Source: Hexactinellida sp. DTS-2022 | Taxonomy: Eukaryota; Porifera; Hexactinellida | Direction of reading: 5' to 3' | Length of the DNA: 64,000 nt | Assembly (NCBI GenBank): GCA_028753945.1 | Contig: JAPNXP010000004.1 | Coordinates: 4,464,001-4,528,000, forward strand | Part shown: positions 2,905 to 53,875 of the stretch, one piece after another | Layout of the letters: each line of letters opens with the position of its first letter | How positions within the stretch are numbered: the stretch's first letter is position 1 | The notes under the pieces: generated by a model | Databases searched by the model: none | What the model saw: only the letters and a program-made list of their open reading frames with translations | Told to the model about the DNA's origin: nothing | Position numbers and translations under genes: made by a program

Positions 2905-2983
2905 TCATGGCCTAGGCGAAACGCGTTTGGCGTCTTTTCTCAGGCGAAACGCGTTTCGCCTGGAAACGCATTTGGCCTGCAAC
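2905..2983. repeat. AGGCGAAACGCGTTT repeat cutting off the NHL gene
   Basis: The unit AGGCGAAACGCGTTT appears twice and in partial form (GGAAACGCATTTGGCCT). Bases 2941-2962 are a perfect 22-bp palindrome. Its junction with NHL homology at about 2983 marks the breakpoint of the truncated gene. Confidence 0.7.
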
Positions 2984-3798
2984 ATATATATTATATCTTT
3001 GTCAGTGGAAATATCAAGTCCTTTTGGTTGGTTAAACTCTAATTCATTCTTTCCTTTCACTCCAACTGAGTTAAGGTATTTCCCTTCTGTAGAATATACA
3101 TTGAGACAATGAGAGCTCCATTGTGTGACATATGCCTTGTTCTGTTCGATACAAATACCAAGTGGTGGTGTGTTCATTTTTTCACTGAATTGGAATACAA
3201 ATTCAAATGAATGGTTATAAACTTGTACACGATTATTCCCTCCATCACAAATGTAAATACAATTATTCACAGGATTAATAGCAATACCATTTGGATAACA
3301 GAACACACCAGGTGAAGAAGACTGTATATTGTTATGTTTCCCAAATACCGCAACAGGATCTCCTATCTGCTTGTAGTCTCGTATTCCTTCTTTCACAGCA
3401 TTAAGTCGTATCTCACCTGCTACACTCAGTTTCTTCTCCAGCTCCACATTCCATTCCAATGATACACTCTTGTAGCTATCTTTTGATGTTCGGAGTTTAG
3501 TTTCTAGTTCTTTAATGCGTGTATTAATAGGACCCAAAGACTGATCGAGAACTTCTTTATTTATGTTTTTCGTAAGTGCGCTCTTAAGAGCTTCTTTAGA
3601 AACAGTTAACTCCTTGATTTGCAGAACTAATTCTTCTCCCATGGACTCGTCTACCAATCTCTGTAACTCTGTTAACAGATCGGCTTCTCTAGCCTGTAGC
3701 AGCTCGTGAGCTCTTATGAACTTAGTGCGTATCTCGCTACGCACTCTCTCCACGTGAGAGAGGAAGCTCTCTTCTCCCACACCATAAGCACTAGCCAT
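2905..3798 (-). pseudogene. Coiled-coil + NHL propeller gene, 3'-truncated copy
   Basis: The start ATG at 3798 lies 12 bases after TTTGTAG|AAC, the same position as in the two full copies. Residues 1 to about 272 align with the full 415-residue proteins at 10607 and 39793: an N-terminal helical coiled coil (about 1-130), the shared linker with EWNVELEKKLSVAGEIRLNA (about 113-133), then the first NHL-type blades with YICDGGNNRVQV and LGICIEQNKAYVTQ. Homology stops at about 2983 within the blade beginning GLDISTD. The last 25 residues (LQAKCVSRRNAFRL...) come from unrelated repeat DNA rich in AGGCGAAACGCGTTT, including a perfect 22-bp palindrome at 2941-2962. The protein would lack roughly the last third of the propeller, so a folded domain is doubtful. 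Upstream sequence to about 3930 resembles the other copies, so the promoter region was duplicated too. NHL propellers bind RNA or protein partners; the partner here is unknown. Confidence 0.75.
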
Positions 3799-4559: not shown

Positions 4560-5215
4560 GACCTGCCAACTCACTTTTGCCCAAAGAAATATATTTTCGA
4601 ATTTACTTGCCAGTTGTATTTGAATATAGCATAAAGTAGCATACAAAACAATTATTGAAGAGCAGTGAAATGCCAAATCTAAGTTTAACATAGGGACAGA
4701 ATAAACTCTCATTTAAATTGCTAAATGTATTTGGTAGTGCAGATATTTTACTGGTTGCAGTAATACCATTAATGCTGTATTAAGTATAAAGATCATAAGT
4801 GGTTTAATCAGAAACACGTGGACATTCGAGGAGTAATTAGATCGACTCCAAATATGGGAATATGGGAACTTTTACACAATTTGGAAAGGAAAGATTCATA
4901 ATATAAATTTATAATTGTGAAATTCGTAATCGGCATACTTGTTACCTATAATACCCGTTGGAAGCTAGACTTATTTCAATTATAATTGCGTTTTCTATTC
5001 CCATCAAAACGATGAACTCACCGTGTGCAAAATCACTAGCAATTCCTTAATAAAGCTTAATTCATTATTGTAGATTAATAATTAGACTGACATGAAGTTT
5101 GATAGAGCAAGATGTGTAGAAGAAATGTTTGAAACGAAAGTCTAGAATTGAATAAGTTGACAGAGCAGAATAAGACAAGAGGATATACTATTGCTAATAT
5201 TTATAATATTTAATG
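4560..5215. other. Gene-free interval with dispersed-repeat fragment
   Basis: Bases 5040-5205 match part of the long repeat found at 14590-14760 and inverted at 31230-31400 (TTAATAATTAGACTGAC... GAAACGAAAGTCTAG). The remainder is unclassified AT-rich DNA. Confidence 0.6.
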
Positions 5216-7740: not shown

Positions 7741-7850
7741 AAAGTACACAGATCATGATCCTTAGGAAGTACACAGATCATGATCCTTAGAAAGTACACA
7801 GATCATGATCCTTAGGAAGTACACAGATCATGATCCTTAGGAAGTACACA
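7741..7850. repeat. 25-bp tandem array, left arm
   Basis: Four units of AAGTACACAGATCATGATCC followed by TTAGG/TTAGA. Each unit contains the palindrome GATCATGATC. It is the shorter partner of the array at 9535-9797. Confidence 0.9.
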
Positions 7851-8435
7851 CATCGTATACCATTATAGGCTCAAGACATAAGTACAAATGTTTTTGTTTG
7901 GTATGTCACGAAATATTCGGTCCGGGGTAAATTTGTCCGGCCGGACCAAATATATCAGAAATATTTGGTCCGGCCGGACATAAAATTTCCTGGACCGAAT
8001 ATTTCAGACATTTTTGGTCCGGGTTTGCAAAATGTCCGGCCGGACTAAATATTTCAGATGTTTTTGGTCCGGGCTATTTTTCGGTCCGGCCGGACCAAAT
8101 ATATCAGAAATATTTGGTCCGGGTTGATTCTTGATATTATTTTAGAAAATAGACAGTTAATTGAATTTACTAAGAATTATTTGAAAATCTACTATAGTAC
8201 GCATTTAGTAGGGTCTTCATACAATGGCTCGCGAGTTGAACGTGGCTCACAAGTATGTTGTGTGTGACTCCATTAACTTGTGTATATTCTTGTTATGAGT
8301 ATATAATAGACTAATAGTTAGTGCAGTGCCTCTCAATTTATTTACTAAGCAAGGATTGATGTCTGTCTGTCTGTCTGTTTGTAGCACAGGCTCCAGGGGT
8401 GGTGAATCTGCTGCTAACAGCTAAGAATTCGTCCC

Positions 8436-8572
8436 CATAGGCGTCGTAACCCGCCTGGGTGCCCGGAAGGGTTGCCCCTATGCTACTAATACTATACCCG
8501 GAGTTTACCCGGACATTACCCGGAATTTCCGGGCGGCCCGAAGGATTGACCTTTGCATTTACGACGCCTATG
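8436..8572. mobile_element. hAT-like MITE with perfect 8-bp duplication
   Basis: The element begins CATAGGCGTCGTAA and ends TTTACGACGCCTATG, flanked by perfect TTCGTCCC octamers (8428-8435, 8573-8580). The 81-codon frame spanning it is chance. Confidence 0.9.
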
Positions 8573-8635
8573 TTCGTCCCCAATTGGCATTAACCTTAAC
8601 TGCATTTAAGTCGCCTTTAAGTTGTTAATTAACGC

Positions 8636-8752
8636 CAATTTAAGCTGTTAACAGCCCATTTTGAGCTGTTAACAGCCAATTCTAGCTGCTAACAGCCCAA
8701 TTTAAGCTGTTAACAGCCAATGTGAGCTGTTAACAGCCAATTCAATAATTGT
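8636..8752. repeat. AGCTGTTAACAGCC tandem repeat
   Basis: Five units of about 20-24 bp carry the palindromic core AGCTGTTAACAGC. They lie in the centre of the long inverted-repeat element at 7736-9800. Confidence 0.8.
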
Positions 8753-9534
8753 ATCAGTAAAATTAAGGAAAAGGGACAAGCAAAGAAAATTATACTCAAA
8801 AATGTTTAAATTCGAATTGTATATCGTATTTAAATAACAGTGAAATTTGAAACTAAATGATTATATAACAATATTTCAATTATTGCATTGGTCAGCATCT
8901 AGCTGTCAACAGCTTCGATTTTCCTTTGCTGTTTCCATCCCTGAGCACAGCACGTTCGGTATGAACCAGTGACTGTAGAAAGTCGAGACTGGTACCAAAA
9001 TTGTGCAATACGTATTATAAACCTGTGACCTGAAAAACAGCATACTCCGCTTAAAAGATCTACCGGACGAAAAAAATAATGTTAAACTAGACAACTCTTC
9101 CCGTCAATTTTCTAACGGAACACATTACATTCTGTCTATTTTCTGTTATACAATGCATATTCGAAGAATATATATTATCTTTTCAGTGGGGTTGAATTGG
9201 GGCAATCAAGTGCAAGATATCTTAACATTCTAAAACAATATTAAGAATCAACCCGGACCAAATATTTCTGATATATTTGGTCCGGCCGGACCGAAAAATA
9301 GCCCGGACCAAAAACATCTGAAATATTTAGTCCGGCCGGACATTTTGCAAACCCGGACCAAAAATGTCTGAAATATTCGGTCCAGGAAATTTTATGTCCG
9401 GCCGGACCAAATATTTCTGATATATTTGGTCCGGCCGGACAAATTTACCCCGGACCGAATATTTCGTGACATACCAAACAAAAACATTTGTACTTATGTC
9501 TTGAGCCTATAATGGTATACGATGTGTGTACTTC

Positions 9535-9797
9535 CTAAGGATCATGATCTGTGTACTTCCTAAGGATCATGATCTGTGTACTTTCTAAGGATCATGATCT
9601 GTGTACCTAAGGATCATGATCTGTGTACTTCCTAAGGATCATGATCTGTGTACCTAAGGATCATGATCTGTGTACTTCCTAAGGATCATGATCTGTGTAC
9701 TTCCTAAGGATCATGATCTGTGTACTTTCTAAGGATCATGATCTGTGTACCTAAGGATCATGATCTGTGTACCTAAGGATCATGATCTGTGTACTTT
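9535..9797. repeat. 25-bp tandem array, right arm
   Basis: Eleven occurrences of ATCATGATCTGTGTAC separated by either CTAAGG or TTCCTAAGG/TTTCTAAGG, giving 22- and 25-bp steps. It is the inverted, longer partner of the array at 7741-7850. The mix of spacings suggests unequal exchange within the array. Confidence 0.9.
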
Positions 9798-10606: not shown

Positions 10607-11854
10607 TCAAAATGCTTGAAAGCAATGTTCTGGGTTCAAAGATGCAACTATAATCCTCCCTTCGCCATTGATTGCTATTCCCCTTGGCCATATGAACTCT
10701 CCTCTCTTCTCCCCTTCTCTACCGAATCTGTGGATCAACTTTCCTTCAAAAGAGAAGATAGAAACACAGTGCCTAGTAGAGTCGGTAATGAGAATATTTG
10801 AGGATTTATCGAGAATGAAAGAAGAAGGTTTAACAACTGGATTACCTTCACCCAAAGGAATCATCTCCCGAATCAATTGGTGAGAATATGTGTATAGAGA
10901 CACACAGAGATTACGAAAGGACAATATTACAATCTCATCAGAAGTTAGTTTGACATCTAAAGCTCCAGAAATATCATTGATAAAAGAGTTGAATTTGAGA
11001 TTTAAATTCAAACATTGAATTCTAGCATTTCCATATTCAGCTATATATATTCTGTCTCTGTCAGTGGAAATATCAAGTCCTCTTGGTTTGTCAAACTCTA
11101 ATTCAATCTTTCCTTTCACTCCAACTGAGTTAAGATATTTCCCTTCTGTAGAATATACATTGAGACAATGAGAGCTCAATTGTGTGACATATGCCTTGTT
11201 CTGCTTGATACAAATACCAACTGGTAAGTTCATCTTTTCACTGAATTGGAATACAAATTCAAATGATTTGTTAGAAACTTGAATACGGTCATTCCCTCCA
11301 TCACAAATGTAAATACAATTATTCACAGGATTAATAACTATACCTATAGGATAACAGAACACACCAGGTGTAGAAGACATTTTCTTGCTATGTTTCCCAA
11401 ATACCGCAACAGGATCTCCTATCTGCTTGTAGTCTCGTATTCCTTCTTTCACAGCATTAAGTCGTATCTCCCCTGCTACACTCAGTTTCTTCTCTAGCTC
11501 CACATCCCATTCCAATGATACACTCTTGTAGCTATCTTTTGCTGTTCGGAGTTTTGAATCTAGTTCATTAATGTGTGTATTAATTAAAGTTAAATTCTCA
11601 TCGAGAATTTCTTTATTTGTCTTCTTCGTAAGTGCGCTCTTAAGAGCTTCTTTAGAAACAGTTAACTCCTTGATTTGCAGAACTAATTCTCTTCCCGTGT
11701 ACTCGTCTACCAATCTCTGTAACTCTGCTAACAGATCGGCTTCTCTGGCCTGTAGCAGCTCGTGAGCTCTTATGAACTTAGTGTGTATCTCGCTACGCAC
11801 TCTCTCCGCTTGAGAGAGGAAGCTCTCTTCTCCCACACCAGAAGCACTAGCCAT
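10607..11854 (-). CDS. Coiled-coil + NHL beta-propeller protein (415 aa)
   Basis: An intact single-exon frame from ATG 11854 to TGA. Residues 1-130 are charged and heptad-rich (LLQAREADLLAELQRL, then KELTVSKEALKSAL), predicting a coiled coil for oligomerisation. A linker with SVSLEWDVELEKKLS precedes a propeller from about residue 165 with NHL-type blades: CYPIGIVINPVNNCIYICDG, LPVGICIKQNKAYVTQ, RGLDISTDRDRIYIAEYGNA, FILDKSSNILITD and a closing RGIAINGEGRIIVAS. There is no RING or B-box, unlike TRIM-NHL proteins, and no signal peptide, so a cytoplasmic adaptor or RNA/protein-binding role is inferred. The copy at 39793 is clearly homologous along its whole length and shares about 180 bp of upstream sequence. 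TTTATAG|AAC, 12 bases before the ATG, looks like the 3' splice site of a 5'UTR intron. Start choice is supported by three aligned paralogues. Confidence 0.9.
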   Translation of the reverse strand: MASASGVGEESFLSQAERVRSEIHTKFIRAHELLQAREADLLAELQRLVDEYTGRELVLQIKELTVSKEALKSALTKKTNKEILDENLTLINTHINELDSKLRTAKDSYKSVSLEWDVELEKKLSVAGEIRLNAVKEGIRDYKQIGDPVAVFGKHSKKMSSTPGVFCYPIGIVINPVNNCIYICDGGNDRIQVSNKSFEFVFQFSEKMNLPVGICIKQNKAYVTQLSSHCLNVYSTEGKYLNSVGVKGKIELEFDKPRGLDISTDRDRIYIAEYGNARIQCLNLNLKFNSFINDISGALDVKLTSDEIVILSFRNLCVSLYTYSHQLIREMIPLGEGNPVVKPSSFILDKSSNILITDSTRHCVSIFSFEGKLIHRFGREGEKRGEFIWPRGIAINGEGRIIVASLNPEHCFQAF

Positions 11855-26204: not shown

Positions 26205-26620
26205 CTACTGTACTGCCGGGTTTGAGTCATGCAATACTGGCTGTAAGTCAAGCATTGCCATGTATGATTGAAAGAGTTGACTTTTTGTGTCAACCAATGG
26301 CTAGGTGTCCCAAACAATGCCGTATGTTGGTTAATCAATAACGGAGGTTGATCAACCAATGCCGTGTGTATATCAAGCAATGACGGAGGTGTGTCAAGCA
26401 ATACCGGGTGTATATCAAGCAATATCGGATGTGTCTCACCATTACCGGGTATTTATAAAGCAATGACGGAGGTGTGTCAAGCAATACCGGGTGTATATCA
26501 AGCAATATCGGATGTGTCTCACCATTACCGGGTATTTATAAAGCAATGACGGAGGTGTGTCAAGCAATGACGGGTGTATATCAAGCAATATCTAGTGTGT
26601 ATCAAACATTACCGGTTATA
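26205..26620. repeat. CAAGCAATACCGGGTGT minisatellite
   Basis: Units of about 20 bp (TCAAGCAATNNCGGNTGT) form a higher-order period of about 82 bp: GCAATGACGG recurs at 26378, 26460 and 26543. Units left of 26340 are more degenerate. Open frames on both strands here reflect the period. Confidence 0.85.
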
Positions 26621-26919
26621 ACGGAATGCTGTGGGCAGTATTCAATCTCCATTGAATGTTACATTTTGTAATAATTCACGTATCATTATTCTGGTTGTGC
26701 AAATGTCACCGTCAAATATAAAGGCAGATCAAAGTATCTAATTAAATGGCGACCGGAAATAATTGATTCAAGTAGCCCTCATATAATAGGATGTTTGTGA
26801 TGACGGGCTGACAGGAGTGCACTAGAGGGATCCTAGTGTAGGTGGGTTATGCTTAGTACCTGTGGTAGGAGAACGGCATGGCTCACTGGCAACTAGAACT
26901 GGAGTAGACCAGTTGTAGT

Positions 26920-26969
26920 GTGGTCGAGGGTTACCCTCCTGATGAGTCCTTGTGATAGGACGAAACCAC
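26920..26969 (+). ncRNA. Hammerhead ribozyme, type III layout, copy 1
   Basis: All core elements of the self-cleaving hammerhead are present in order. Stem III pairs 26920-26924 (GTGGT) with 26965-26969 (ACCAC). The cleavage triplet GTC ends at 26925. Stem I is GAGGG (26926-26930) with CCCTC (26934-26938), loop TTA. The conserved CTGATGA is at 26939-26945. Stem II is GTCCT (26946-26950) with AGGAC (26957-26961), loop TGTGAT. GAA at 26962-26964 closes the core. Cleavage is predicted after C26925. The 44 nt from the cleavage site to the end of stem III are identical to copy 2 at 53314-53363. In animals such ribozymes usually belong to retrozymes or Penelope-like elements. No reverse transcriptase was found beside it. 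Confidence 0.88.
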
Positions 26970-27194
26970 TTCCACCACATGTAGTATCCCGGTGGGTGTG
27001 AGATACATTTACGGTGTCTCATGCTCACCACATGTTTATTGTAGTCCAGAATTTAACTAGCATTCCACACAACTACGCATTCACATCCTGCATAGAGTAA
27101 TGCAATGTGATCATTAGAACTATACATGCTAGTAATCATGGTAAGACCATCTAAAATCAGCCGCTGATAGTGCCCGGAATGATAACTAAGCTCT

Positions 27195-34329: not shown

Positions 34330-34791
34330 GGAGCTGCCTGCAAGTACTTCCAAAATTTTATACTAGCCGCGATTATTGCTCAACATTCGAGCTCCCATGC
34401 TGAATAGTTTTTCTGGGAAAATGTGAGCCCAGACGAAAAATATGCGATAGGTTTTAACAAGCCGGTTCCGTCCTCTTGGGATAGTATACCCTCAGCTGCT
34501 GTCACGGAAGCGTCTACCTGTAGCACAAACTCTGAACTCCAATTGGGGACAGCGCGAGTCACAGGTAGCTCAATCAGTTTATCCTTAAGTCCATGAAAAG
34601 CTCTCTCCTCGGCTGAGTCCCAAGTCCATTCGACAGAATCTCGCATTAGGCGGTGCAGCGACTCTGAACTGTCTGCAAATCCTTCATCGTGTTCTCGATA
34701 TCAATTCACTATCCCGAGAAATCTCGATAGTTCTTTCTTCGTCCTACGGCTGTCCACGTACTTATATTTTCGACGAGTCTGGGGTTGGACG
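34330..34791 (-). pseudogene. pol: Gypsy RT thumb/RNase H domain
   Basis: The minus-strand frame 34646-34380 reads WDSAEERAFHGLKDKL, FVLQVDASVTAAEGILSQ (the D of QVDAS is the first RNase H acidic residue), PIAYFSSGLTFSQKNYSAWE. Upstream, RTKKELSRFLGIVN with a following stop gives the usual RT-connection motif. Interrupted on the 5' side by the hAT element 34792-35810 and on the 3' side by the block at 32990-34325. Confidence 0.85.
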
Positions 34792-36330: not shown

Positions 36331-36988
36331 TGTCACGAAAAAATTGGTCCGGGCCAAAACTGGTCCGGTCGGAACAATTTTGGCTCGGCCAAAAATGGTC
36401 CGGGACCAATTTTGGCCTGCCATAAATGGTCCTAGCTTGCTAAAATAGGTCCGGCCTAAACTTTTTGCCAGATCGCACTAAAGTTGCTATAACAAACCTC
36501 CCACTAGTGCGAAATTGTATAGGACGATCAATTATTAAATTGAAAATGTATCTTTTTCTAATTGTCTACTATGGTTCAGGGGAAAAAGGAGTCCCTTATA
36601 AGTATGAAGGCATGAATAATAGTGAAAAGAATTGGTTTTGTAATTGTGATATATGGAGTTACGGTGTAAAGAATCAACTTTGTAATTGTGTATTATTGAC
36701 TATTGTGAAAACATTTGCATCTCTATGTATTCTTGTGTTGATGAATGATAAAAAGCTCTATGATTATTGTCTTGGAATGGCTGCCAAAAACTGGTCCGGC
36801 GGGGACCACCTTTGGCCAATGGGGATCGCCTTTGGCGACCAAAACTGGTCCGGCCGGACCATTTTTGGCGACCAAAGCTAGTCCGACCGGACCATTTATG
36901 GCCGGCCAAAATTGGTCCCGGACCAGTTTTGGCAGTCAAAAGTGGTCCGGCCGGACCACTTTTGACCCGGACCAATTTTGGCGTGACA
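36331..36988. mobile_element. TGTCACG-ended element of the GGTCCGGCCGGACC family
   Basis: Terminal repeats TGTCACGAAAAAATTGGTCC and GGACCAATTTTGGCGTGACA. A 4-bp duplication GCCC flanks it (36327-36330, 36989-36992). Deleting it with one GCCC rejoins gypsy codons ISPWA|SRVLLVT, which confirms both boundaries. The arms are tandem GGTCCGGCCGGACC/TTTTGGC units. The 138-codon plus-strand frame and its neighbours here have no recognisable domain. Superfamily unassigned. Confidence 0.88.
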
Positions 36989-37320
36989 GCCCAAGGTGAG
37001 ATCGATCTTCGAGAGATTGGATTGGAAAGCATTTCCGATACTTGGCGCATAAGTTCCTCTTCGAACGAAGGCGCCGCTGGGAAGATGTTATGTTTTATTG
37101 GTTGAGCATTTCCAGTATTAATAATGTGTAAAACTGCCTAACCCGGAGTGGGCTTTTGGGTTGGCTGCGAAGACGTCAGAATATTCGAGCAAAAGTGTTC
37201 GCAGTGAGTTTCCTGGAACAGTTGTTAGATCAGGGTTGAGATTCTCACTCAATTCTTCAGGTGCCACGTTTCTCTTTACAGTATATCAAGTTTATATTCT
37301 GAGTGATTATAAGAAACATG
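36989..37320 (-). pseudogene. pol: Gypsy PR-RT linker region
   Basis: The minus strand reads VAPEELSENLNPDLTTVPGN, LRTLLLEYSDVFAANPKAHS (a typical 'L..Y.DVFA' linker before RT) and, after a stop, RQVSEMLSNPISRRSISPWA. It links the protease piece beyond the hAT element at 37329-37820 with RT. Confidence 0.8.
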
Positions 37321-38050: not shown

Positions 38051-38780
38051 GTTTATATGTCGAGTCCCCCCCCTCCCTTCAAGAATTAGCAAAGTGTATT
38101 TACTCGCATACCTGCCAATCTAGTTGAGTTATATCCCTGTTCGCTGTTCCAGTTTCCTCTGTATATTGCCCAAATTCCCTCAGAACCTACAAAGTTTTTT
38201 CTCGCTCGCTAAGCTCGCTCTTCTGTAGAATCCATATACACTTATATACAAAGTAATACACTGACAAATACATTGCATTCACGTTGTGACAATACAAAAT
38301 GCATATGGCAAAGTTATAATTATTAAGTTTGACATTAATCAAATTAATCACTTAGATTGGAGAAAACATGGAGTCAATCCGAGAAAATCTTTATAATTAA
38401 AACTCGATTGTTGTGTGTGTGTGTGTTTGTGTGATAAACTAACTTCCAATCGTAATAATAGGTAAACAGGTATGCTGAATACGAATTTCGCATTTACACA
38501 TTTCTTATATGAGTAATAATTGTTGTTATTTACAAAAATCGGTAAACAAATTATTGAAAATGAACCTAGAGCCCAACTTCACAGAAACTTAGAAAAGGGA
38601 GCCAAGTATGCTGATTACAAATTCAATTTTTTTAAATTTTTAATGTAAATTTCATTGTCTATTGAAAAGAGCGAGATCGAAGGGCTCGTAGTACTGTACA
38701 GCTGAACTAATAGTATTTTTTGGCGACCAAATAGTAGTAAATTTGGTTGAGATATTCGGTTGAACTTTAGGTCCACCAGA
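38050..38780. repeat. Dispersed-repeat fragments
   Basis: Bases 38110-38225 match a repeat at 34950-35045 (ATATCCCTGT... CTCGCTCGCT). Bases 38398-38570 are a single copy of the start and 145-bp unit of the Helitron-like element at 51792-52740 (CTCGATTGTTGTGTG, GGTAAACAGGTATGCTGAA). No gene seen. Confidence 0.6.
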
Positions 38781-39792: not shown

Positions 39793-41040
39793 ATGGCTAG
39801 TGCTTATGGTGTGGGAGAAGAGAGCTTCCTCTCTCACGTGGAGAGAGTGCGTAGCGAGATACACACTAAGTTCATAAGAGCTCACGAGCTGCTACAGGCT
39901 AGAGAAGCCTATCTGTTAGCAGAGTTACAGAGATTGGTATATGAGTACACGGGAGAGGGAATAACTCAACAAATCAAAGAACTTTCCCATTCGAAGGAGG
40001 TTCTCAGAGACGCTCTCAAGGGAAATGAGAACAAACTTATCTTTGAGCAAAGTGCTGCTCCTATTGATGCATGCATTAAAGAATATGAAACAAAACTCCG
40101 AAAAGCAAAAGATAGCTACAAGAGTGTGTCATTGGAATGGGATGTGGAGCTGGAGAAGAAACTGAGTGTAGCAGGTGAGATACGACTTAATGGTGTGAAA
40201 GAAGGAATACGAGACTACAAGCAGATAGGAGATCCTGTTGCGGTGTTTGGGAAACATAACAAGAAAAGGTCTTCTTCACTTGGTGTTTTCTGTTATCCAG
40301 CTGGTATAGCTGTTAATCATGTGAATAATAATATTTACATTTGTGATGGAGGTAATCATCGTGTTCAAGTTTATAGCAAATCGTTTGAATTTGTATTCCA
40401 ATTCAGTGTAGAGATGAACACACCAGTTGGCATTTGTATAAAGCAGAACAAAGCATATGTCACACAGTATAGCTCTCATTGTCTCAATGTATATTCTATT
40501 AAAGGGAAATATCGCAACTCAATTGGGAAGAAAGGAAAGAAAGAATTATACTTTGACAGACCAGGAGGACTTGATATTTCCACTGACAGAGATAGAATAT
40601 ATATAGCTGAATATGGAAATGCTAGAATTCAATGTTTGAATTTAAATCTCAAATTCAACTCTTTTATTAATGATATTTATGGAGCTATAGATGTCAAACT
40701 AACTTCTGATGAGATTGTGGTATTGTCTCTTCGTAATCTCTGTGTGTCTCTATACACATATTCTCATCAATTGATTCGGGAGATGATTCCTATTGGTAAA
40801 GATAATCCAGTTGGTACACCTTCTTCTTTCATTCTCGATAAATCTTTGAATATTCTTATTACCGACTTTACTAGGCATTGTGTTTGTATCTTCTCTTTTG
40901 GAGGTGGGTTGATCCACAGATTCGGGAAAGAAGGAGAAAAGAGAGGAGAATTCATAATGCCAAAGGGAATAACATTCGACATAGAAGGAAGAATTATAGT
41001 CACATCTGATAACCCCGAACATTGCATTCAATTATTTTGA
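39793..41040 (+). CDS. Coiled-coil + NHL beta-propeller protein (415 aa)
   Basis: Intact single-exon frame, the same length as the copy at 10607-11854 and similar throughout. Residues 1-130 are a charged coiled coil (LLQAREAYLLAELQRL). The segment from about 60 to 110 (QQIKELSHSKEVLRDALKGN) is the most different between copies. The linker SVSLEWDVELEKKLSVAGEI is nearly invariant. The propeller starts at about 165 with blades CYPAGIAVNHVNNNIYICDG, TPVGICIKQNKAYVTQYS, GGLDISTDRDRIYIAEYGNA, FILDKSLNILITDF and PKGITFDIEGRIIVTS, ending CIQLF. No RING, B-box, signal peptide or membrane segment, so a cytoplasmic oligomeric propeller is inferred. Contrast between a variable coiled coil and a conserved linker hints at diversification of pairing specificity. 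Function unknown; NHL propellers of other animals bind RNA or partner proteins. Confidence 0.92.
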   Translation: MASAYGVGEESFLSHVERVRSEIHTKFIRAHELLQAREAYLLAELQRLVYEYTGEGITQQIKELSHSKEVLRDALKGNENKLIFEQSAAPIDACIKEYETKLRKAKDSYKSVSLEWDVELEKKLSVAGEIRLNGVKEGIRDYKQIGDPVAVFGKHNKKRSSSLGVFCYPAGIAVNHVNNNIYICDGGNHRVQVYSKSFEFVFQFSVEMNTPVGICIKQNKAYVTQYSSHCLNVYSIKGKYRNSIGKKGKKELYFDRPGGLDISTDRDRIYIAEYGNARIQCLNLNLKFNSFINDIYGAIDVKLTSDEIVVLSLRNLCVSLYTYSHQLIREMIPIGKDNPVGTPSSFILDKSLNILITDFTRHCVCIFSFGGGLIHRFGKEGEKRGEFIMPKGITFDIEGRIIVTSDNPEHCIQLF

Positions 41041-44604: not shown

Positions 44605-45804
44605 ATGGCAACTCAATACCCCAAAGGTGAAAATCCAGATATATTCCTGACTGTAGAACGACAGATAATAGAAACATTCGATAATCTCATTGGTCGCATT
44701 ACAAACAGGAAAGATGAACTACTCGAAGAATTACGAAAATTGAAATTAACTTTTCAAGAAAAAATCAGATCTCAAGAGAAAACACTAAAAGAGCTTGAGA
44801 ATATCCGTATACAGCTACAAGATATTAATCAGAAGGAAAACACAACTTCAAACATACTTCAGTCCACTCTAGGCCCAATGGAACAACAGATATATAATCT
44901 CAAAACTTCGATTATTCAACCGCCTAACTTACGCCTCTCTTGTCAAACTCAAATAATAAGTGAACTGATTGGGAATCTAGGAAAGTTGGATTACGGAGGG
45001 AAGGCTATTGACTATGCTAGCAAGAGCAAGGCTAGACATTTGATTGATATCTCATGCGTAGATAATTTGCATATCGACGATACACATCTTTATACTATTG
45101 ATGGGAGAACGATCTCTAGGTATAATATAACCAATTGGAAACTAATGCAAACCTATAATCCCATGAAATCTAATATAGAAGCTGTAGCAACAACAGATAA
45201 TCATTTCTATTTAACAACTACCTATTTATATTCAACTGGCTTTGAGTATAATCAATACTATGAAATAATCAAACTAACTAAAGATACATTTACAACTGTG
45301 AAGACTCAACGAGCAACTGGAGGATCAAATAGTAAACCTTGCGCATTAATTAGTATTGCAGTTGCATCTGAAGATGAACTATTCGTAGCGGATAAGAATA
45401 ACAACAGAATTTGTGTGTTTGACTCAAATCTCCATTATAGAAAGGAATTTGGAACTGAAACTTTAAAGAGTCCCACTATAATTCTCATAAAAGAAAACAG
45501 AGTTATAATTAAAGATGAGTCCAAGCAATTACACCTCTTCAACAGAGAAGGAGATCACATAGGGAATCTTCCAGAATACGAGGGAATTACTTTCATTAGA
45601 TGGTTTTGTTTCGATACAGCTGAAAATATTATATACACATTTAACAATTGTGTCAGGATAATGTCCCCAAAAGGAGAGCTATTGAAGATAATTGGAAGTG
45701 GAACCAAAGGAAGTGAAGATGTAACTGGTTGTGGCCCTATAGCTCTATATAAGGACAATATAATAGTGGCTTGTAGAGATATCAAATGTATCAAGATATT
45801 CTAG
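44605..45804 (+). CDS. Divergent coiled-coil + NHL-like propeller protein (399 aa)
   Basis: Intact single-exon frame from ATG 44605 to TAG. Residues 20-105 form a strong coiled coil (ITNRKDELLEELRKLKLTFQ, IRSQEKTLKELENIRIQLQD). A short linker leads to propeller-like repeats from about 145: LHIDDTHLYTIDGRTISRYN, DNHFYLTTTYLYSTG, the best NHL-type blade SEDELFVADKNNNRICVFDS (about 252-272), LHLFNREGDHIGNLPEYEG, and CVRIMSPKGELLKIIGSG, closing with DIKCIKIF. Only the general layout is shared with the 415-residue paralogues 5 kb upstream on the same strand. The intergenic region has no conserved promoter. No RING, signal peptide or transmembrane segment. Function unknown; its intact frame amid decayed DNA suggests it is or was recently expressed. 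Confidence 0.88.
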   Translation: MATQYPKGENPDIFLTVERQIIETFDNLIGRITNRKDELLEELRKLKLTFQEKIRSQEKTLKELENIRIQLQDINQKENTTSNILQSTLGPMEQQIYNLKTSIIQPPNLRLSCQTQIISELIGNLGKLDYGGKAIDYASKSKARHLIDISCVDNLHIDDTHLYTIDGRTISRYNITNWKLMQTYNPMKSNIEAVATTDNHFYLTTTYLYSTGFEYNQYYEIIKLTKDTFTTVKTQRATGGSNSKPCALISIAVASEDELFVADKNNNRICVFDSNLHYRKEFGTETLKSPTIILIKENRVIIKDESKQLHLFNREGDHIGNLPEYEGITFIRWFCFDTAENIIYTFNNCVRIMSPKGELLKIIGSGTKGSEDVTGCGPIALYKDNIIVACRDIKCIKIF

Positions 45805-45899
45805 AAACAAATTCTTAGACTTGGATATCTGTGAGCCTATTTGTTGTAGTTATGTACGTATCAAGTATTATCTCAGGATTTCCTTTTAGGGGCAATCCA

Positions 45900-46110
45900 A
45901 GAGGAGGGGGGGTTAACCAATGTGTGACAGACCTATATTTTTGAATTCAAAAATTGTCAAAAAGCGTGACATAGGGACAGAGGCGGATTAACCAAGGGGC
46001 ACCTGCCCCAGGGCCCCAAAGCTTCAGGGGACCCCACTCAAGATATGAAACGAAAAATTATCCCAAATATAGAGGGAATTTTGATTATTGGAAATAATCT
46101 TTATATAAAA
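45900..46110. repeat. Transposon-end fragments
   Basis: Contains GTGTGACAGACC...AAAAAGCGTGACATAGGGACAG, related to 44355-44430, and a CAGAGGCGGATTAACC terminus like the hAT element at 61435. No partner end was found. Confidence 0.5.
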
Positions 46111-46322
46111 TATCACTAATAGTCCAGCAATATGGTGAAAGATTGTGCATTTTCGAGATAAAAGTACCAAATTTTGCACAATTGTAGTATTATAGGTTCA
46201 TATCAACTTCAGCTATGGTACATAGCAGAATTTTTGGAAGATTTGTTTTTTCAGGGGGTCAAAAATTGGTGGCCAATCGAATCCCCGGAAGTATAAATAC
46301 AGGATAACTCATTCAAATGTAT

Positions 46323-46679
46323 TCTTAACGACTTTATATTGTCAGATTCGTGCTCAGCACTTAATTTCCAGCATTTTGATAGGTATATTGACTATATTTG
46401 GTGAGAATATTTTTTGGTTTTCCATAGCAACGGTAAGAATGTGTTGAACATTCCGATCTCCCAATTTGGAGTAACCATATCGAGTGACCCCTTGTTTTTC
46501 TCGGGTATGCGTACTGAGTGCGAATATACTATTAGAAACACTCTAAATATTAATTGTCAAGCCAAAAGTATGCATTTAACATATTCCAGCTCAAAGCCAA
46601 GATTTATCCAAGATGAAAAGTAGTAGTTGCTGGAAATTAAGTGCTGAGCACGAATCTGACAATATAAAGTCGTTAAGAA
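46323..46679. repeat. Inverted-repeat module inside P left arm
   Basis: Begins TTCTTAACGACTTTATATTG and ends with its complement, with about 48-bp ends. The mirror copy is at 50704-51061 in the right arm. A 69-codon frame in both copies is a by-product of the duplication. Probably a MITE present before the arms became long, or spread by gene conversion. Confidence 0.75.
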
Positions 46680-47268
46680 CGTGTCTTCGTACTTGTACTA
46701 CTTCTAGGCAGGCTTGGACCGGCCATAGTTCCATAGTGCAATGCACATGCTTCCCCATTTATTCGTCCCTGTGTCAGGCCAGTAGCTAGGGGGAGGCTCG
46801 CCGGCTAGGTTAACTTTTGTGATATATCTGACCATAGCCTACTATACATAAGGCCTCACAGTAACAATTGAAATTTGGACCAGGGATGAGGTCGCCGATC
46901 GATTATGAAAATGACGACTTATTCTTCCGATTGTCAAATTTGGTCAATCATGGTCTACCAAACATAAGACTTCACTTTTTTAAGAGAAATGTGGACCAAG
47001 TATGCAATAGTTGATGAAATACGAAATTGATTTATTCTATTTAATTGCCAAATTAAGTGAATCAGAAAGGGAAGTTCTTAAGGAATATGAACAATTAGCA
47101 CTTTAATTGTTAATAAAATAAACAAATACTATTAGAATTACACAGTGGAGGATGTTAAAACAATTAATCTAATTATTACAAATAGTAACAAAATGCTTAA
47201 TCTTCCTTGAACGTGAACTTAAGTAAGAAAAACGTAGAAATGTAGGATCTGTACTGCCAATGAAAGAA

Positions 47269-50129
47269 CTAAGAATTAAACTTTTTCAATTTTCGTTTCT
47301 CTAATCCTTTAGAAATAACCTTAGAATTGTAATTTTTCACTTTATTAGCTATTAAACAATTTACTTCAATGAATACAACTTTGCGAAGAATCAAAGACAT
47401 ATTTAATTTGCAAGAGGGACATTGTTCTCTCCAACTTCCATCAACAACTGAACAAACAAGATCCAGTAGAATCTGCCTAGATGGTCCTTCCACAAATATG
47501 CGCATCAATTCTGTATTTCCTTCGATAATAGTTAACATCTTCCAAACAGCTATTATGGAATCCAAGAGTAGCTCAGAGGGATATTTCAGACCTCCACGAT
47601 CAGTAAGTTCCAATAGCCTATACTGAGATCCGGCTGATTCATCAAGTAGGAAATTTTTATCAATGATTAATATATCTTGACATATGTGGCATGGTGGACT
47701 ACGTTTAAAGTATTGGTGTGCGGCATATCCGGCTATAAAAGCTAATGATTGAAGTATTTGGGCATCACACTCAATGTTGGATAGATCTGAAATTTCATTA
47801 AGGAAAGGGTCAAGATCAAAATCAGTATCCGAAAATGCCTTCTCTTCAGAAGAAAAGGATTGGATAAATTCTTGTAAAGAATAACTACAAGATTCAGACT
47901 GATAGGAAAATAGATTTAAAATATTTGAAATTTTCAGACGTCGCTCAGCTTCTAATATTTGCAGATAAGAAATGTGGTAATTGGCACCTGACATCATACG
48001 ATAAAGTCCGAATCGATGTTCCAAAGGGTCCGTCTGTAAGAAAGAGGTTAAAAGGTATGAATATCCACATGTGCCCGCCAGATAGTTAGTTATTTGTGGT
48101 AAAACAAGGCAGGCATGTCTTAAGCTTGTGAAAGTTTGTTTGCTTAATTTCCCATCTTTCCCAGGAAGTGAATCCCAAGCGGCTAACCAACAAACTATAC
48201 GATCTAAAAAGGCAAAGCGGTCGTCATTAAATGTGAATGGTTGAGAGGGTGGATCGTTTAAACGAACATGCTTGTATGGAGCATTTACATTGAACATTTT
48301 CCATAAAGATAAGATAATGTCAAGAAAATCTGTAGTATTAGATTTATATGCAAGCACAACGTTGGTCATTTTGAATGGTTAAAGCAGATATTGTGGATTC
48401 ATGTATGACCTTTAAAACTAATTTCACATTCTGACGTTCTAAACAAGAAGGAAAACATGCTTTAAATGTTAACCTTGGAGCTAGTTTTGCCAATCTTTCT
48501 TTCTCAGAAAGATATAAGGTACGGACATCGCGGAAAGAAGCTGTGCACAGTCTCAAAGGATAGGAACAATAATTGGTTTGTATATCTTCTAAATTAGGGT
48601 AAATAAAACTCTTACTCTCTGACTTTAGATTCAACCAGTTATTTCGTATTGTCTTCAATATGTGCACAAAATCAAAGGTGAGAAATAGGATCCGATTTGG
48701 ATCAGAAGGATGCGGTACTTGAGTTTCCAGCTTACCATTTTTAGAGAAGAGTTTGAATAATTTTACATTGAGAGGATAGTTGTCGGTAGAGATAATATCT
48801 ACAACTAAACCACAAAGCTCTATATCTCGAATACATAATACCACTATAGCGAATATCGTTTCCGCTGAAAGAGAAGCACAGGGTAACAAACGAACAATAC
48901 AGGACCATTTTTTCTGAAGACTAGAGACCATGATAGCGAATACAGTTTTGACCGGATCTTCTGGTCTTAAACTAGCACCAAATATCTTACCACCAATATA
49001 TGAAATATCCGATTTGATATGAATTTCGTCCATTTGGACAATTACATGTTTTTCAGGATCAGAGAAAGAATGAGTCGCTTGTTTGAGGAAGGGAAAATAG
49101 TAACTTTCAAGGCCAGATGAAGAATATAACTTGAGTAGAGTATTGACATGAGGAAGAGTTAGACAAAGCATCTGCTGGAGATATTTATAACAGGCTGGAG
49201 AAATTAAATGTGTTTTAAGAGCCAAAACTTGTGTTAGTACATTATATCTACGCCTTGTTTTGAGGGACGAGGCTGTTTTCTAACTGGCATTGTATGAACT
49301 GCAGTCTTGAAAGTTCTGGATAATCAGTTGATTCTAAATCGGATTCATTAGTTTGCAAAGTATTGATGGCTTGTTGGATATGGTCTTTCGCTAAAGAGAT
49401 ATGTGAACCAGTCGTCTCAGAAACAAAAGATTCACAGGGATGTGTTGATTTAGAAATTTCACCAAGAATCGTTTCAAGTTGTCGTATATCAGTAATTGAG
49501 TTTAGCGAAAGCGAACAAGGTTCTCCATTACAATTGGCTCTAACAGATAGATCAGAATGTACTATCAAGTACTTATTTACTAGGATATCGCTATTTATTA
49601 GACTAGGGCGCATAAAAATTATACTCTTTTCGTCAGGATACCATAATGACCATGTTTTTGGCAAGGGAAGCAAAGATAACTTGTCAGGAATATCATGTAA
49701 ACTGTTAATCTTGAACTTCTCTACCTCTTCAGCTTATGAATTCAAGCTAAGTGTTAAAGTTTGGTTGAATAGTTCATATTCTCTTAAGTCGAGGGGACGC
49801 CTGCGTTTAGCACTAGATTGATAGTATGATGGACAACCGGGTAGATAAACTGGTACAGCGCCATCTTTCAGCTTTGGGCTGACTCGAGGGATTTCACGGA
49901 AAGTTCCATCTCCATTTGGAACTTTGTGGCTGTATTCTATATCTTCTTCGCGGAAATGTTTCACGCAAATATAAACAGCCTTCAATTCATCTAAATCATC
50001 CCTCCGAAGAGCCCTAAACCAGGAGTGTCTGAGTTCAGGTGGATTTTGTGGTAATTTGAAAACTGGTACAATTTCTGAAGAAGATTTGTAGTTGCTTTTG
50101 CAGCCAGGAGCCGAGCAGCAATTAGGCAT
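47269..50129 (-). pseudogene. P-element (THAP9-like) transposase with one stop and two frameshifts
   Basis: ATG 50129 starts a THAP zinc finger: MPNCCSAPGCKSN (C2), FRALRRDDLDELK, CVKHFREEDIEYS (C-x2-H) and the PVYLPGCP tail. One in-frame TAA at 49734-49736 interrupts it; the same frame continues to a stop near 49248. A shift near 49255 leads to the next frame (48344-49225), beginning YNVLTQVLALKTHLISPACY, with IVQMDEIHIKSDISYIGG holding a likely first catalytic Asp, IISTDNYPLN a second, and DFVHILKTIRNNWLNL. A second shift at about 48380 leads to the last frame (to 47269) with DPLEHRFGLYRMMSGANYHI, which holds the probable catalytic Glu. The order matches P transposases: DNA-binding THAP, helical region, RNase H-like core with insertion. 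Total about 950 codons. The element cannot make its own transposase as sequenced, but the damage is light, so a close active relative is likely. Confidence 0.88.
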
Positions 50130-50703
50130 TTTTGAAAATTAAACAATACTAAAAGCTAAGGTAGAACAAGTAAACAAAATTAAGTATGGTTAAAACAAAG
50201 TTTATACACCAGAAGCGAAGAACAGAGACTGAATATCCACTGATTACATGACTTACTAAAAACATTATACAATCAAATTATATATTCAAATGAATTTTCT
50301 ATTGTTTTGGTAAATTAATAATTACTAAACACTAACTATTTAACATTGTGGTTCATTTAGAAATTACGGCTGCAACCGTATCCTTGGTCCAAATCTCCCT
50401 TAAAAAAGTGAAGTCTTATGTTTGGTAGACCATGATTGACCAAATTTGACAATCGGAAGAATAAGTCGTCATTTTCATAATCGATCGGCGACCTCATCCC
50501 TGGTCCAAATTTCAATTGTTACTGTGAGGCCTTATGTATAGTAGGCTATGGTCAGATATATCACAAAAGTTAACCTAGCCGGCGAGCCTCCCCCTAGCTA
50601 CTGGCCTGACACAGGGACGAATAAATGGGGAAGCATGTGCATTGCACTATGGAACTATGGCCGGTCCAAGCCTGCCTAGAAGTAGTACAAGTACGAAGAC
50701 ACG

Positions 50704-51061
50704 TTCTTAACGACTTTATATTGTCAGATTCGTGCTCAGCACTTAATTTCCAGCAACTACTACTTTTCATCTTGGATAAATCTTGGCTTTGAGCTGGAAT
50801 ATGTTAAATGCATACTTTTGGCTTGACAATTAATATTTAGAGTGTTTCTAATAGTATATTCGCACTCAGTACGCATACCCGAGAAAAACAAGGGGTCACT
50901 CGATATGGTTACTCCAAATTGGGAGATCGGAATGTTCAACACATTCTTACCGTTGCTATGGAAAACCAAAAATATTCTCACCAAATATAGTCAATATACC
51001 TATCAAAATGCTGGAAATTAAGTGCTGAGCACGAATCTGACAATATAAAGTCGTTAAGAAT
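50704..51061. repeat. Inverted-repeat module inside P right arm
   Basis: Mirror of 46323-46679, with the same TTCTTAACGACTTTATATTG ends and the same interior frame on the opposite strand. Confidence 0.75.
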
Positions 51062-51105
51062 TCATTTGAATGAGTTATCCTGTATTTATACTTCCGGGGA
51101 TTCGA

Positions 51106-51361
51106 TTGGCACCAATTTTTGACCCCCTGAAAAAACAAATCTTCCAAAAATTCTGCTATGTACCATAGCTGAAGTTGATAAGAACCTATAATACTACAAT
51201 TGTGCAAAATTTGGTACTTTTACCTCGAAAATGCACAATTCGACCATTTCCTGCACCATATTGCTGGACTACTGTGTTATGCTCTTACAATATAATAATC
51301 AGGTATTATATTGTAAGATAGCAGGCAGCCTCCGGTCCCTACGACCATGGCCCAGCACCCT
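51106..51361 (+). repeat. 256-bp direct repeat, left copy
   Basis: Begins TTGGCACCAATTTTTGACCC and ends ATGGCCCAGCACCCT. It is identical to 53030-53285 except for a handful of bases (e.g. in the A-rich run near 51125 and C/T near 51222). It covers the last ~170 bp of the P right arm plus 86 bp of flank, including a TTACAATATAATA hairpin. It directly abuts the LINE. Confidence 0.9.
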
Positions 51362-53029
51362 TTGGGATAGTAATCTATCAATGAAACAGCATGTGAGCAA
51401 GGTTTGTAGTTCAGCTGCCTTGTATCTAAGCAGGATTGGACATATAGCTGAATATCTAGACAAAAAATCAAAAGAGAAACTAGTTCATGCTTTTATTACA
51501 AGTAAACTTGATTATTGTAATTCCTTATTACTTGGACTACCCGATAAAGAATTGAATAGACTTCAAAGGATACAAAACTCTGCGGCCCGCTTAATTTCTG
51601 GAGCCAGGAAATTCGATCATATTACTCCGGTGTTAGAGAGCCTTCATTGGTTGCCGATTAAAGCTAGAATTCAATTTAAGATCCTCTTGACAACTTTTAA
51701 AGTTATTCAGGGCTGTTGTCCTCTATACTTGTGTGATTTAATTCATCTTTGTCGAAACTCATATAATCTTAGATCATCTAATACAAATCTATATTATTAA
51801 ATCTCGATTGTTGTTTGTTTGTTTGTGTGTGTGTGTGTGTTTGTTTGTCCGGATTGTATTAAAGTTATGGGGGAATAGAAACCGCAATTAATATTGGGAT
51901 ATAAACTAACTTTCAAATGTTATAATAGGTAAACAAGTATGCTGAACACGAATTTCGCGTTTATAAATTTCTCATATTAATATTTGTTGTTGTTGTTTAC
52001 ACAAAATAGGTAAACAAATTAATGAAAATTCAAAATCAACCTAGAAGTTAGCTTCCAACGGGTATTATAGGTAAACAAGTATGCCGAACACGAATTTCGC
52101 GTTTATAAATTTCTCATATTAATATTTGTTGTTGTTGTTTACACAAAATAGGTAAACAAATTAATGAAAATTCAAAATCAACCTAGAAGTTAGCTTTCAA
52201 CGGGTATTATAGGTAAACAAGTATGCTGAACACGATTTTCGCGTTTAAAATTTTCTAATATGGATATTTGTTGTTGTTGTTGTTGTTTACACAAAATAGG
52301 TAAACAAATTAATGAAAATTCAAAATCAACCTAGAAGTTAGCTTTCAACGGGTATTGTAGGTAAACAAGTATGCTGAACACGAATTTCGCGTTTAAATTT
52401 TCTAATATGAATATTTTTGTTGTTGTTGTTGTTTACTCAAAATAGCTAAACAATTTAATGAAATTTCAAAATCAACCTAGAAGTTAACTTTCAATAGGTA
52501 TTATAAGTAAACAAGTGTGCTGAACACGAATTTCGCATTTATAAAATTCTAATATGAGTATTTGTTGTTGTTGTTGTTTACACAAATAGGTAAACAAATT
52601 AATGAAAATCAAAATCATAACGTCCCTATCTACCATTTCCATGGTAGAAAATGTGAGGAGCAAGGCCGCACAGCGGCTGTTAACTTGAGGTGCGTAGCAC
52701 CGATCTGTCGCAAAGCGACCGAGACCGAAGGGCTCATATACTTAAACAGCCCAAATCTAGACTACAGAACTATGGAGATCGGTCATTTTCCACTGGTGCC
52801 CCAAGATTGTGGAATTCTCTTCCTGATAATATCAGAAAGTCAAATACACTAGACATTTTCAAAAAAGATTTGAAGACCTATCTCTTTACTAAGCATTACA
52901 ATATTTGATTTTTGTTTGTATATATTATGTTTTTTTTTTTCTCTTGTACGTACTTAACTTTGAACTGTAAACGCTTTGAGACATCTGTGGAAAGCGTCCT
53001 AAATGCTGTGATTATTATTATTATTATTG
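51362..53029 (+). mobile_element. CR1/jockey-like LINE, 5'-truncated, 3' (ATT)n tail
   Basis: The C-terminal part of a LINE reverse transcriptase ORF starts abruptly at DSNLSMKQHVSKVC and continues through LVHAFITSKLDYCNSLLLGL, LQRIQNSAARLISGARKFDH, ITPVLESLHWLPI, typical of CR1/Rex-group ORF2 ends. The frame breaks at codon CTA (to 51791), where a 949-bp element is inserted. It resumes at 52741 with LKQPKSRLQNYGDRSFSTGA and RLWNSLPDNIRKSNTLDIFK to a stop at 52908. The 3'UTR contains GTAAACGCTTTGAGACATCT and ends with (ATT)6. Lacks the polymerase and endonuclease domains. Flanked by a 256-bp direct repeat. Confidence 0.88.
51792..52740 (+). mobile_element. Helitron-like non-autonomous element with five 145-bp tandem units
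   Basis: It lies between LINE codons CTA and CTT, so both ends are known to within 2 bp. It starts TATTATTAAATCTCGATTG followed by (TGTT)n/(GT)n, has five units of 142-148 bp (from about 51902; GGTAAACAAGTATGCTGAAC in each) and ends in small GC hairpins (GGCCGCACAGCGGC, TGCGTAGCA, GTCGCAAAGCGAC) then CCGAGACCGAAGGGCTC. Microsatellite start, tandem core and 3' hairpins resemble HINE/DINE and bivalve 'pearl' elements of the Helitron group. The same 3' end occurs inverted at about 56690-56720, and a single unit lies at 38440-38570. Confidence 0.8.
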
Positions 53030-53285
53030 TTGGCACCAATTTTTGACCCCCTGAAAAAAAAATTCTTCCAAAAATTCTGCTATGTACCATAGCTGAAGTT
53101 GATAAGAACCTATAATACTACAATTGTGCAAAATTTGGTACTTTTATCTCGAAAATGCACAATTCGACCATTTCCTGCACCATATTGCTGGACTACTGTG
53201 TTATGCTCTTACAATATAATAATCAGGTATTATATTGTAAGATAGCAGGCAGCCTCCGGTCCCTACGACCATGGCCCAGCACCCT
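53030..53285 (+). repeat. 256-bp direct repeat, right copy
   Basis: Immediately follows the LINE (ATT)n tail and repeats 51106-51361 at near identity. The sequence after it (ACCTTACAGGGCATAAC) differs from the sequence after the left copy. Confidence 0.9.
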
Positions 53286-53313
53286 ACCTTACAGGGCATA
53301 ACATATTGTATGT

Positions 53314-53363
53314 GTGGTTTCGTCCTATCACAAGGACTCATCAGGAGGGTAACCCTCGACCAC
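53314..53363 (-). ncRNA. Hammerhead ribozyme, type III layout, copy 2
   Basis: On the minus strand: stem III GTGGT (53363-53359) pairs with ACCAC (53318-53314); the cleavage triplet GTC ends at 53358; stem I GAGGG/CCCTC with loop TTA; CTGATGA; stem II GTCCT/AGGAC with loop TGTGAT; then GAA. All 44 nt after the cleavage site match copy 1 at 26926-26969, while sequence outside the ribozyme differs. It lies 29 bp beyond the LINE-associated direct repeat. No partner ribozyme in tandem was seen. Confidence 0.88.
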
Positions 53364-53875
53364 CATGTCTAGGCACCACCGTACTTCCGTATTTACCGTA
53401 CTGCCGCTACCTACATACTCCAGTAGGCACTCCTGTAGTGTATACAAGTGCAGACTATCTAGTAGACTCTCTACAGTCTACAGTGTGTACTTGTAACAAT
53501 ACTGTTAGCACCCCCGGCTAGCCCCCAAATGTGGCACAGCTGTGATCGCTTACAGAGTCCGTTTACCGTAGGTATACTCGAGAGCTATCTTCGGATTGGC
53601 GGACTCGTCGCGGTCTGGAAAACTGAGAATCAGAGGTTTTCCCGAAAAACCGGCTACCAGAATGAAAATAGAAGATTCTAGACTCTTTAGGAGTTGATCT
53701 GTAAATGGACTGCAATATTTCCCACAAGTCATCACCCTCTTGGAAATTCATTCGGAACCAAACTATACAGTAGAACTTCGTTAGTACGGACATGGTTAAT
53801 ACGAATTCCTGTGAATATGAACACTATTTAAGTCCCCTTCAAAGCCTTTTCATTACAAATGATATTGGTTAATAT

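Follow-up and report, generated by a model that had tools for sequence, protein, structure and literature searches.

A type III hammerhead ribozyme present twice, letter for letter, in putative structured, retrozyme-like units of a hexactinellid sponge contig

In animals the usual hammerhead ribozyme is of type I, while type III is found mainly in plants and viroids (PMC7229834, PMC7761336, PMC7936874). The vast majority of hammerheads in eukaryotic repeated regions are likewise of type I (PMC3088659). The animal non-LTR retrozymes of coral, jellyfish, mussel and axolotl are non-coding, self-paired units with one hammerhead each, of type I, arranged in tandem and with a GC content below 45-50% (PMC7229834). 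Coral repeats measure 220-240 bp and jellyfish units 233 and 227 nt; the multimeric RNA of animal retrozymes is cleaved into unit lengths, which are then ligated as circles, and RtcB circularised more than 80% of the axolotl unit in vitro (PMC7229834). Plant LTR retrozymes combine a type III hammerhead with a length of about 600-1000 bp, LTRs, a primer-binding site and a polypurine tract (PMC7761336, PMC7229834). The retroelement-linked hammerheads of Penelope-like elements and Terminons, which also occur in animals, are described as minimal type I forms without helix III or loop contacts (PMC7761336). Type III does exist in animals: it is known from toad and termite deltavirus-like RNAs and from termite and dipteran genomes, with longer helices I and II and a loop pseudoknot, and the termite genomic examples are isolated motifs without recognisable ORFs (PMC7936874). 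Deltavirus-like RNAs carry the ribozyme in both polarities (PMC7761336), and mammalian Clec2 genes harbour a discontinuous type III hammerhead (PMC6155905). On hammerheads in sponges, no paper was found by title in the open-licence literature; the one match for sponges was a review of the RECK gene.

Here we describe two hammerheads in a stretch of 64,000 nucleotides from a contig of Hexactinellida sp. DTS-2022 (JAPNXP010000004.1), referred to as the window. Copy A, on the plus strand, reads GTGGT, C, GAGGG, TTA, CCCTC, CTGATGA, GTCCT, TGTGAT, AGGAC, GAA and ACCAC in direct succession. These letters form a stem III of 5 bp, a GUC triplet, a stem I of 5 bp with a UUA loop, the CUGAUGA box, a stem II of 5 bp with a 6-nt loop, and GAA, exactly the layout that an earlier note on this DNA had written down. 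That note had also proposed a search with covariance models, and the outcome bears it out: when the whole window was scanned with cmscan against Rfam 15, Hammerhead_3 (RF00008) matched 26918-26971 (+) from the first to the last of its 54 model positions, with 58.3 bits and an E of 2.2e-10. The score lies above the gathering score of 48.5 and the match covers the full model, which is more than chance would give. Taken alone, the 50-mer has the full hammerhead as its minimum-energy fold. Sequence, covariance model and fold thus all support a complete hammerhead core; at the level of sequence the ribozyme at 26918-26971 is real, and cleavage after GUC is predicted.

According to both the covariance model and the fold, stem III is the open helix and stems I and II are closed by loops, which makes this a type III hammerhead. 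The core of that class is present, with CUGAUGA, GAA and a cleavage triplet of the NUH form (GUC). The loops, UUA and UGUGAU, lie near the Rfam consensus as judged from the model alignment only: loop I is the consensus itself and loop II compares with UGAaAu. This removes an oddity that the earlier note had pointed out. A 5-bp stem I closed by UUA is the Rfam type III consensus and a 5-bp stem III is near the same model, and neither is now regarded as unusual. What is unusual lies elsewhere: the type III topology of a hammerhead in animal DNA, together with an identical second copy whose flanks cannot be aligned with those of the first.

This second copy, B, had escaped the earlier note. RF00008 matches 53365-53312 (-) with 56.5 bits (E 7.4e-10), and the two matches, both over the full model, are the only ones that Rfam returns at gathering score in the whole window. 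A comparison of the window with itself by blastn, together with a direct comparison, found 50 of 50 letters identical between 26920-26969 and 53363-53314. The identity stops exactly at both ends of stem III, and the letters directly outside differ. In fixed register the next 80 nt agree at 30% upstream and 31% downstream. Local alignment of the flanks revealed no significant homology in 16 tests, which covered lengths of 150 and 400 nt in both orientations under two scoring schemes, with 300 shuffles per test; the lowest of the 16 counts was 31 of 300 shuffles. For the 150-nt sense flanks, the natural score was reached by 35 (upstream) and 46 (downstream) of 300 shuffles under the stricter scheme, and by 166 and 204 of 300 under the looser one. 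An identical ribozyme between unalignable flanks is what one would expect if the ribozyme is what selection keeps.

Further hammerheads were sought throughout the window. A lower Rfam threshold added none; its 15 extra rows, all below gathering score, were set aside (13 rows of microRNA families, blv_FSE and SCARNA7). A pattern for degenerate hammerheads gave five matches with 3.53 expected by chance, and of these only A and B match Rfam.

Putative boundaries for a larger unit come from the flanks. Their best short matches between A and B are ACAGGAGTGC upstream and GTAGTCCAG downstream of the ribozyme, and these two motifs are complementary to each other at 6 of 7 positions. They delimit units with a common plan, in which the two motifs stand at the ends and an outer helix, an inner helix around the hammerhead, and a hairpin lie between them (Table 1). 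The GC content is 50% for unit A and 48% for unit B.

Table 1. Positions of the ribozymes, the putative units and their parts in the window.
Feature	Positions	Strand	Basis or remark
Hammerhead ribozyme type III, copy A	26920-26969	+	RF00008, fold; predicted cut 3' of C26925
Hammerhead ribozyme type III, copy B	53314-53363	-	RF00008, fold; predicted cut 3' of minus-strand C at 53358
Putative structured element A, 239 nt	26811-27049	+	Fold z, motif pair; putative ends
Putative structured element B, 249 nt, plan as A	53188-53436	-	Fold z, motif pair; putative ends
5' motif ACAGGAGTGC of A	26811-26820	+	GGAGUGC pairs with 3' motif
3' motif GTAGTCCAG of A	27041-27049	+	Motif search, fold
5' motif ACAGGAGTGC of B	53427-53436	-	GGA pairs with UCC of 3' motif
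3' motif GTAGTCCAG of B	53188-53196	-	In or at end of P-like TIR
Inner helix of A, 18 bp, around two hairpins and hammerhead	26827-26990 (about 26827-26846 with 26971-26990)	+	Dot-bracket by eye
Inner helix of B, 11 bp, around further stems and hammerhead	53242-53410 (about 53410-53400 with 53253-53242)	-	Dot-bracket by eye
Hairpin H of A, 16 bp, loop 7	26990-27030	+	Hairpin search
Hairpin H of B, 15 bp, loop 6	53206-53243	-	Hairpin search
Copy of last 98 nt of element B: hairpin H and 3' motif, without ribozyme	51264-51361	-	Inside 256-nt direct repeat

How readily such motifs arise by chance was estimated from random locus pairs of the same window with 250-nt flanks, skipping overlaps and leaving out as repeats those pairs with more than three common words. 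Sharing of a 10-mer and a 9-mer with unit lengths within 20 nt of each other occurred in 142 of 40,000 draws, and in 25 of 40,000 once complementarity was added, figures that serve as a guide only, the test being post hoc and the random loci having the window's lower GC. Only two copies are at hand, and the unit ends were chosen after the motifs had been seen. The 3' boundary of B is uncertain because TAGTCCAG occurs in both ends of a neighbouring P-like transposon, which allows two explanations: insertion of the transposon where the element ends, or a match of A and B at this place that is due to chance. With the 3' motif of B in or at a P-like TIR, the motif common to A and B may be coincidental.

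A search for a third unit with the motif pair, allowing up to two and one mismatches, returned five pairs and no new unit: A, B, a variant of locus B that starts from a different 5' word, and two more (45670-46127 (+) and 53199-52757 (-)) that hold no Rfam hammerhead. A further occurrence of TAGTCCAG at 31938 (-) has no 5' motif by eye and no Rfam match. Neither the window's repeats nor blastn revealed a tandem unit holding the ribozyme beside A or B. A second unit in head-to-tail arrangement is likewise absent, the alignment scores of the 200-nt outside flanks against the element being reached by 262, 229, 34 and 172 of 300 shuffles.

The units are more strongly structured than shuffled sequences, and for A this depends on the strand. 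Unit A has a minimum free energy (MFE) of -97.9 kcal/mol (z -4.20; equalled by 0 of 200 shuffles) and its antisense a z of -1.30 (21 of 200). Unit B reaches -90.0 kcal/mol (z -3.12, 1 of 200) and its antisense a z of -3.20 (0 of 200), about as structured as the sense, so that B has no strand preference. In wider context the effect weakens, to z -2.83 for A at 281 nt (1 of 200) and z -2.09 for B at 351 nt (3 of 100). In the MFE folds of both units the 3' motif takes part in an outer helix, the hammerhead is enclosed by an inner helix, and a hairpin of 15-16 bp lies between the 3' strands of the two helices. In A, GGAGUGC pairs with GUAGUCC at probabilities of 0.99-1.0 except for a G-G mismatch. 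Unit B forms only the GGA/UCC part of this register (0.88-0.90, the rest at most 0.03), and CUACUG/CAGUAG replaces the remainder. Circular folding of A and B retains the linear structure, and the two ends meet in a short loop. Hairpins of at least 14 bp (one mismatch, loop 3-10) are frequent in the window, with 27 on the plus and 26 on the minus strand, and one beside each ribozyme is therefore suggestive only.

The natural surroundings also appear to suit the ribozyme. For A, the free MFE fold contains the complete hammerhead at lengths of 239, 281 and 581 nt; for B, it does so at 249 and 276 nt. At 351 nt the best fold of B is without the full hammerhead and the centroid has it; at 564 nt the hammerhead fold lies 0.9 kcal/mol above the best. 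When the ribozyme was kept and the flanks were shuffled, 38 of 200 units for A and 54 of 200 for B still had the hammerhead in their best fold. The natural stem III probabilities, 0.73 (A) and 0.91 (B), were reached by 12 and 13 of 200 flank-shuffled units, and 0 and 1 of 200 attained the energies of the natural units. These results indicate that, in the units as chosen, the flanks promote the fold of the ribozyme, to a moderate degree for each copy.

How does this arrangement compare with the described systems? If their putative ends lie at the end motifs, the units would measure 239 and 249 nt, against about 150-450 bp for the non-coding animal non-LTR retrozymes, and their self-paired bodies with one hammerhead each recall these. 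The retrozyme or Penelope tie that the earlier note had brought up is thus supported in part. The hammerhead, however, is type III and not type I, the units are single and have the higher GC content given above; RF00008 is the sole hammerhead family reported by Rfam with the best match per clan kept, and no type I hammerhead is among the matches. Since hammerhead type and tandem arrangement both differ, the units are retrozyme-like and not members of the animal retrozymes. With plant LTR retrozymes they share the topology, but no LTR-like direct repeat holding the ribozyme is present in the window, and the two copies lie on opposite strands. A Penelope-like element would have type I ribozymes in pseudo-LTRs beside a gene for reverse transcriptase and GIY-YIG; here the ribozyme is type III, and a Pfam scan of 26 translations, which represent 25 of the 48 stop-to-stop ORFs with at least 90 aa, found neither a Penelope-type reverse transcriptase nor GIY-YIG. 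The ribozymes of the window are compact, in contrast to the animal type III forms with their longer helices. They differ from the general run of RF00008, despite the full-length match, in residing in animal chromosomal DNA with no Rfam ribozyme on the opposite strand. Avsunviroids carry the ribozyme in both polarities; the Rfam scan of both strands reported sense-strand matches only.

Copy A sits between an 83-nt tandem array (26371-26619) and dispersed repeats that begin at about 27200. Copy B adjoins a P-like DNA transposon (46110-51280), whose ORFs between 47269 and 50138 (-) encode, by Pfam, a TNP-like RNase H domain (48344-49225) and a THAP domain (49737-50138). Its inverted ends of about 900 nt (46110-47003 and 50380-51280) are 97.5% alike by blastn; an 8-bp target duplication was not seen by eye, and a PDB sequence search with the ORF 48344-49279 found nothing. 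Also beside B, at 51362-53029, a LINE-like 3' fragment with a terminal (ATT)n was recognised by eye, and its ORF has no Pfam match. It is framed by a 256-nt direct repeat (51106-51361 and 53030-53285, 98.8% identical), an unusually long target-site duplication if it is one at all. Within this insertion, 51910-52617 holds about five tandem copies of a unit of about 142 nt, with related sequence at 38434-38561 and 4890-5002. The statement in the earlier note that no reverse transcriptase is nearby stands for the first few kb, as far as Pfam on 25 of the 48 ORFs goes; for the window as a whole it has to be amended by the LINE-like fragment and by a Ty3/gypsy-type RNase H fragment at 34383-34700 (-) (PF17919, E 1e-16).

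Other features were noted along the window. NHL-repeat ORFs lie at 2905-3798, 10607-11854 and 44605-45804 (Pfam) and at 39793-41040 (88% match to 10607-11854); those at 2905-3798, 10607-11854 and 39793-41040 are related, 84-93% alike in stretches and in both orientations, and form a local gene family. A PHD finger is also encoded (Pfam); like the NHL-repeat proteins, the THAP/P-type transposon and the Ty3/gypsy RNase H fragment, it agrees with an animal source. A long inverted repeat at 7742-9797 (7769-8147 and 9228-9606, 99%) with outer 25-nt tandem arrays gives very stable folds. The most stable 200-nt fold of 639 windows on both strands (-110.7 and -114.4 kcal/mol) is that of 36801-37000, which overlaps a 33-nt tandem array with GGTCCGGCCGGACC.

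Relatives elsewhere were searched for in viral and prokaryotic collections, so that absence from them says little. A 28-nt ribozyme pattern had no match in viral contigs. A loosened pattern led to two viral contigs and another pattern to six prokaryote contigs, and none of these eight loci holds a hammerhead at Rfam gathering score. A 21-nt stem I pattern hit a single viral contig, inside an ORF and with no Rfam match.

From these observations an element around the ribozyme, known from two sequences, is likely. Its best explanation, to which we give about an even chance, is that A and B are two dispersed monomers of a self-cleaving, retrozyme-like element of about 240-250 nt that is non-autonomous and non-coding. 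The two full-model Rfam matches, the identity of the ribozymes between unalignable flanks, the common end motifs, folds beyond those of shuffles, flanks that favour the ribozyme, circular folds like the linear ones, and a size and self-pairing in line with animal retrozymes speak for such an element; single units, the type III topology, the GC content, the lack of a target-site duplication by eye, a 3' motif of B in or at the P-like TIR, flanks that align no better than shuffles, the context dependence of the folds of B and its equally structured antisense speak against it. Observed are two copies of the ribozyme sequence, its predicted fold and flanks that favour this fold; transcription, cleavage, circularisation, reverse transcription, insertion and mobility are inferred. 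The sense RNA would fold to a closed structure that presents the type III hammerhead in a junction, and the hammerhead would cut after GUC to leave a 2',3'-cyclic phosphate and a 5'-OH. Head-to-tail transcripts would in this way yield unit-length RNAs, which a tRNA ligase might close to circles, and the reverse transcriptase of a host retrotransposon might convert the circles to DNA copies. A lone unit, having one ribozyme, could not by itself free a circle.

Can the two loci be explained without a retrozyme-like element? They might be two ribozyme remnants, one 50-nt hammerhead having been dispersed by duplication or gene conversion, with the architecture and motifs of the flanks arising by chance. 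Flank alignment scores inside the shuffle range, the abundance of long hairpins on both strands (27 and 26) and the loss of the ribozyme from the best fold of B in its 351-nt context are all compatible with this. It fits poorly with an identity that stops exactly at both stem III ends, with units that are more stable than shuffles and favour the ribozyme, and with a joint agreement of motifs and length that random loci, as a guide, reproduced in 25 of 40,000 draws; we think it rather unlikely. Another mode of dispersal would be by DNA: the units could be short MITE-like elements, moved perhaps via a P-like or other transposase, whose end motifs are short imperfect inverted ends and whose cleavage only trims read-through transcripts. 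By eye, the ends of A (CAGGAGTGCA and, reverse-complemented, CTGGACTACA) are indeed 7/10 alike and those of B 6/10, and B adjoins the P-like element with its long TIRs and TAGTCCAG in both TIR ends. Yet no target-site duplication, of 8 bp or other length, was recognised by eye around A or B, P-like TIR sequence does not follow the 3' end of A, and we know of no DNA transposon that carries a hammerhead. Dispersal of this kind seems improbable to us.

The topology itself could point to an RNA agent, A and B then being genome-captured DNA versions of a circular RNA, similar to viroids or deltaviruses, that replicates from RNA to RNA. Type III is the form of plant viroid-like agents and has the animal occurrences in toad, termite and dipterans cited at the outset, but the hammerheads of toad and termite differ from those of the window in their long helices I and II (PMC7936874), and Rfam reports no opposite-strand hammerhead in either unit, which leaves this origin very improbable. 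Hardly credible, finally, is a domesticated hammerhead, in which a host non-coding RNA gene or UTR element is processed by self-cleavage. Such hammerheads are known in amniotes (PMC6155905) and the 50-nt ribozyme is fully kept in both copies, but these are found near repeats and transposon remains, in opposite orientation and 26 kb apart.

The retrozyme-like reading can be taken one step further, to an animal family of such self-cleaving RNAs with a compact type III hammerhead of the viroid type as its core. The 50 nt of the ribozyme would be fixed to the letter, and the body would keep only its fold and two end motifs. We regard such a family as possible, though doubtful. If it exists, its members would lie beyond the reach of ordinary sequence search. 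A compact type III hammerhead in short structured animal units would extend retrozyme-like elements to another topology, and type III units in an animal genome would bear on the origin of viroid ribozymes. They would also offer a case of a sequence-frozen ribozyme within a drifting RNA body.
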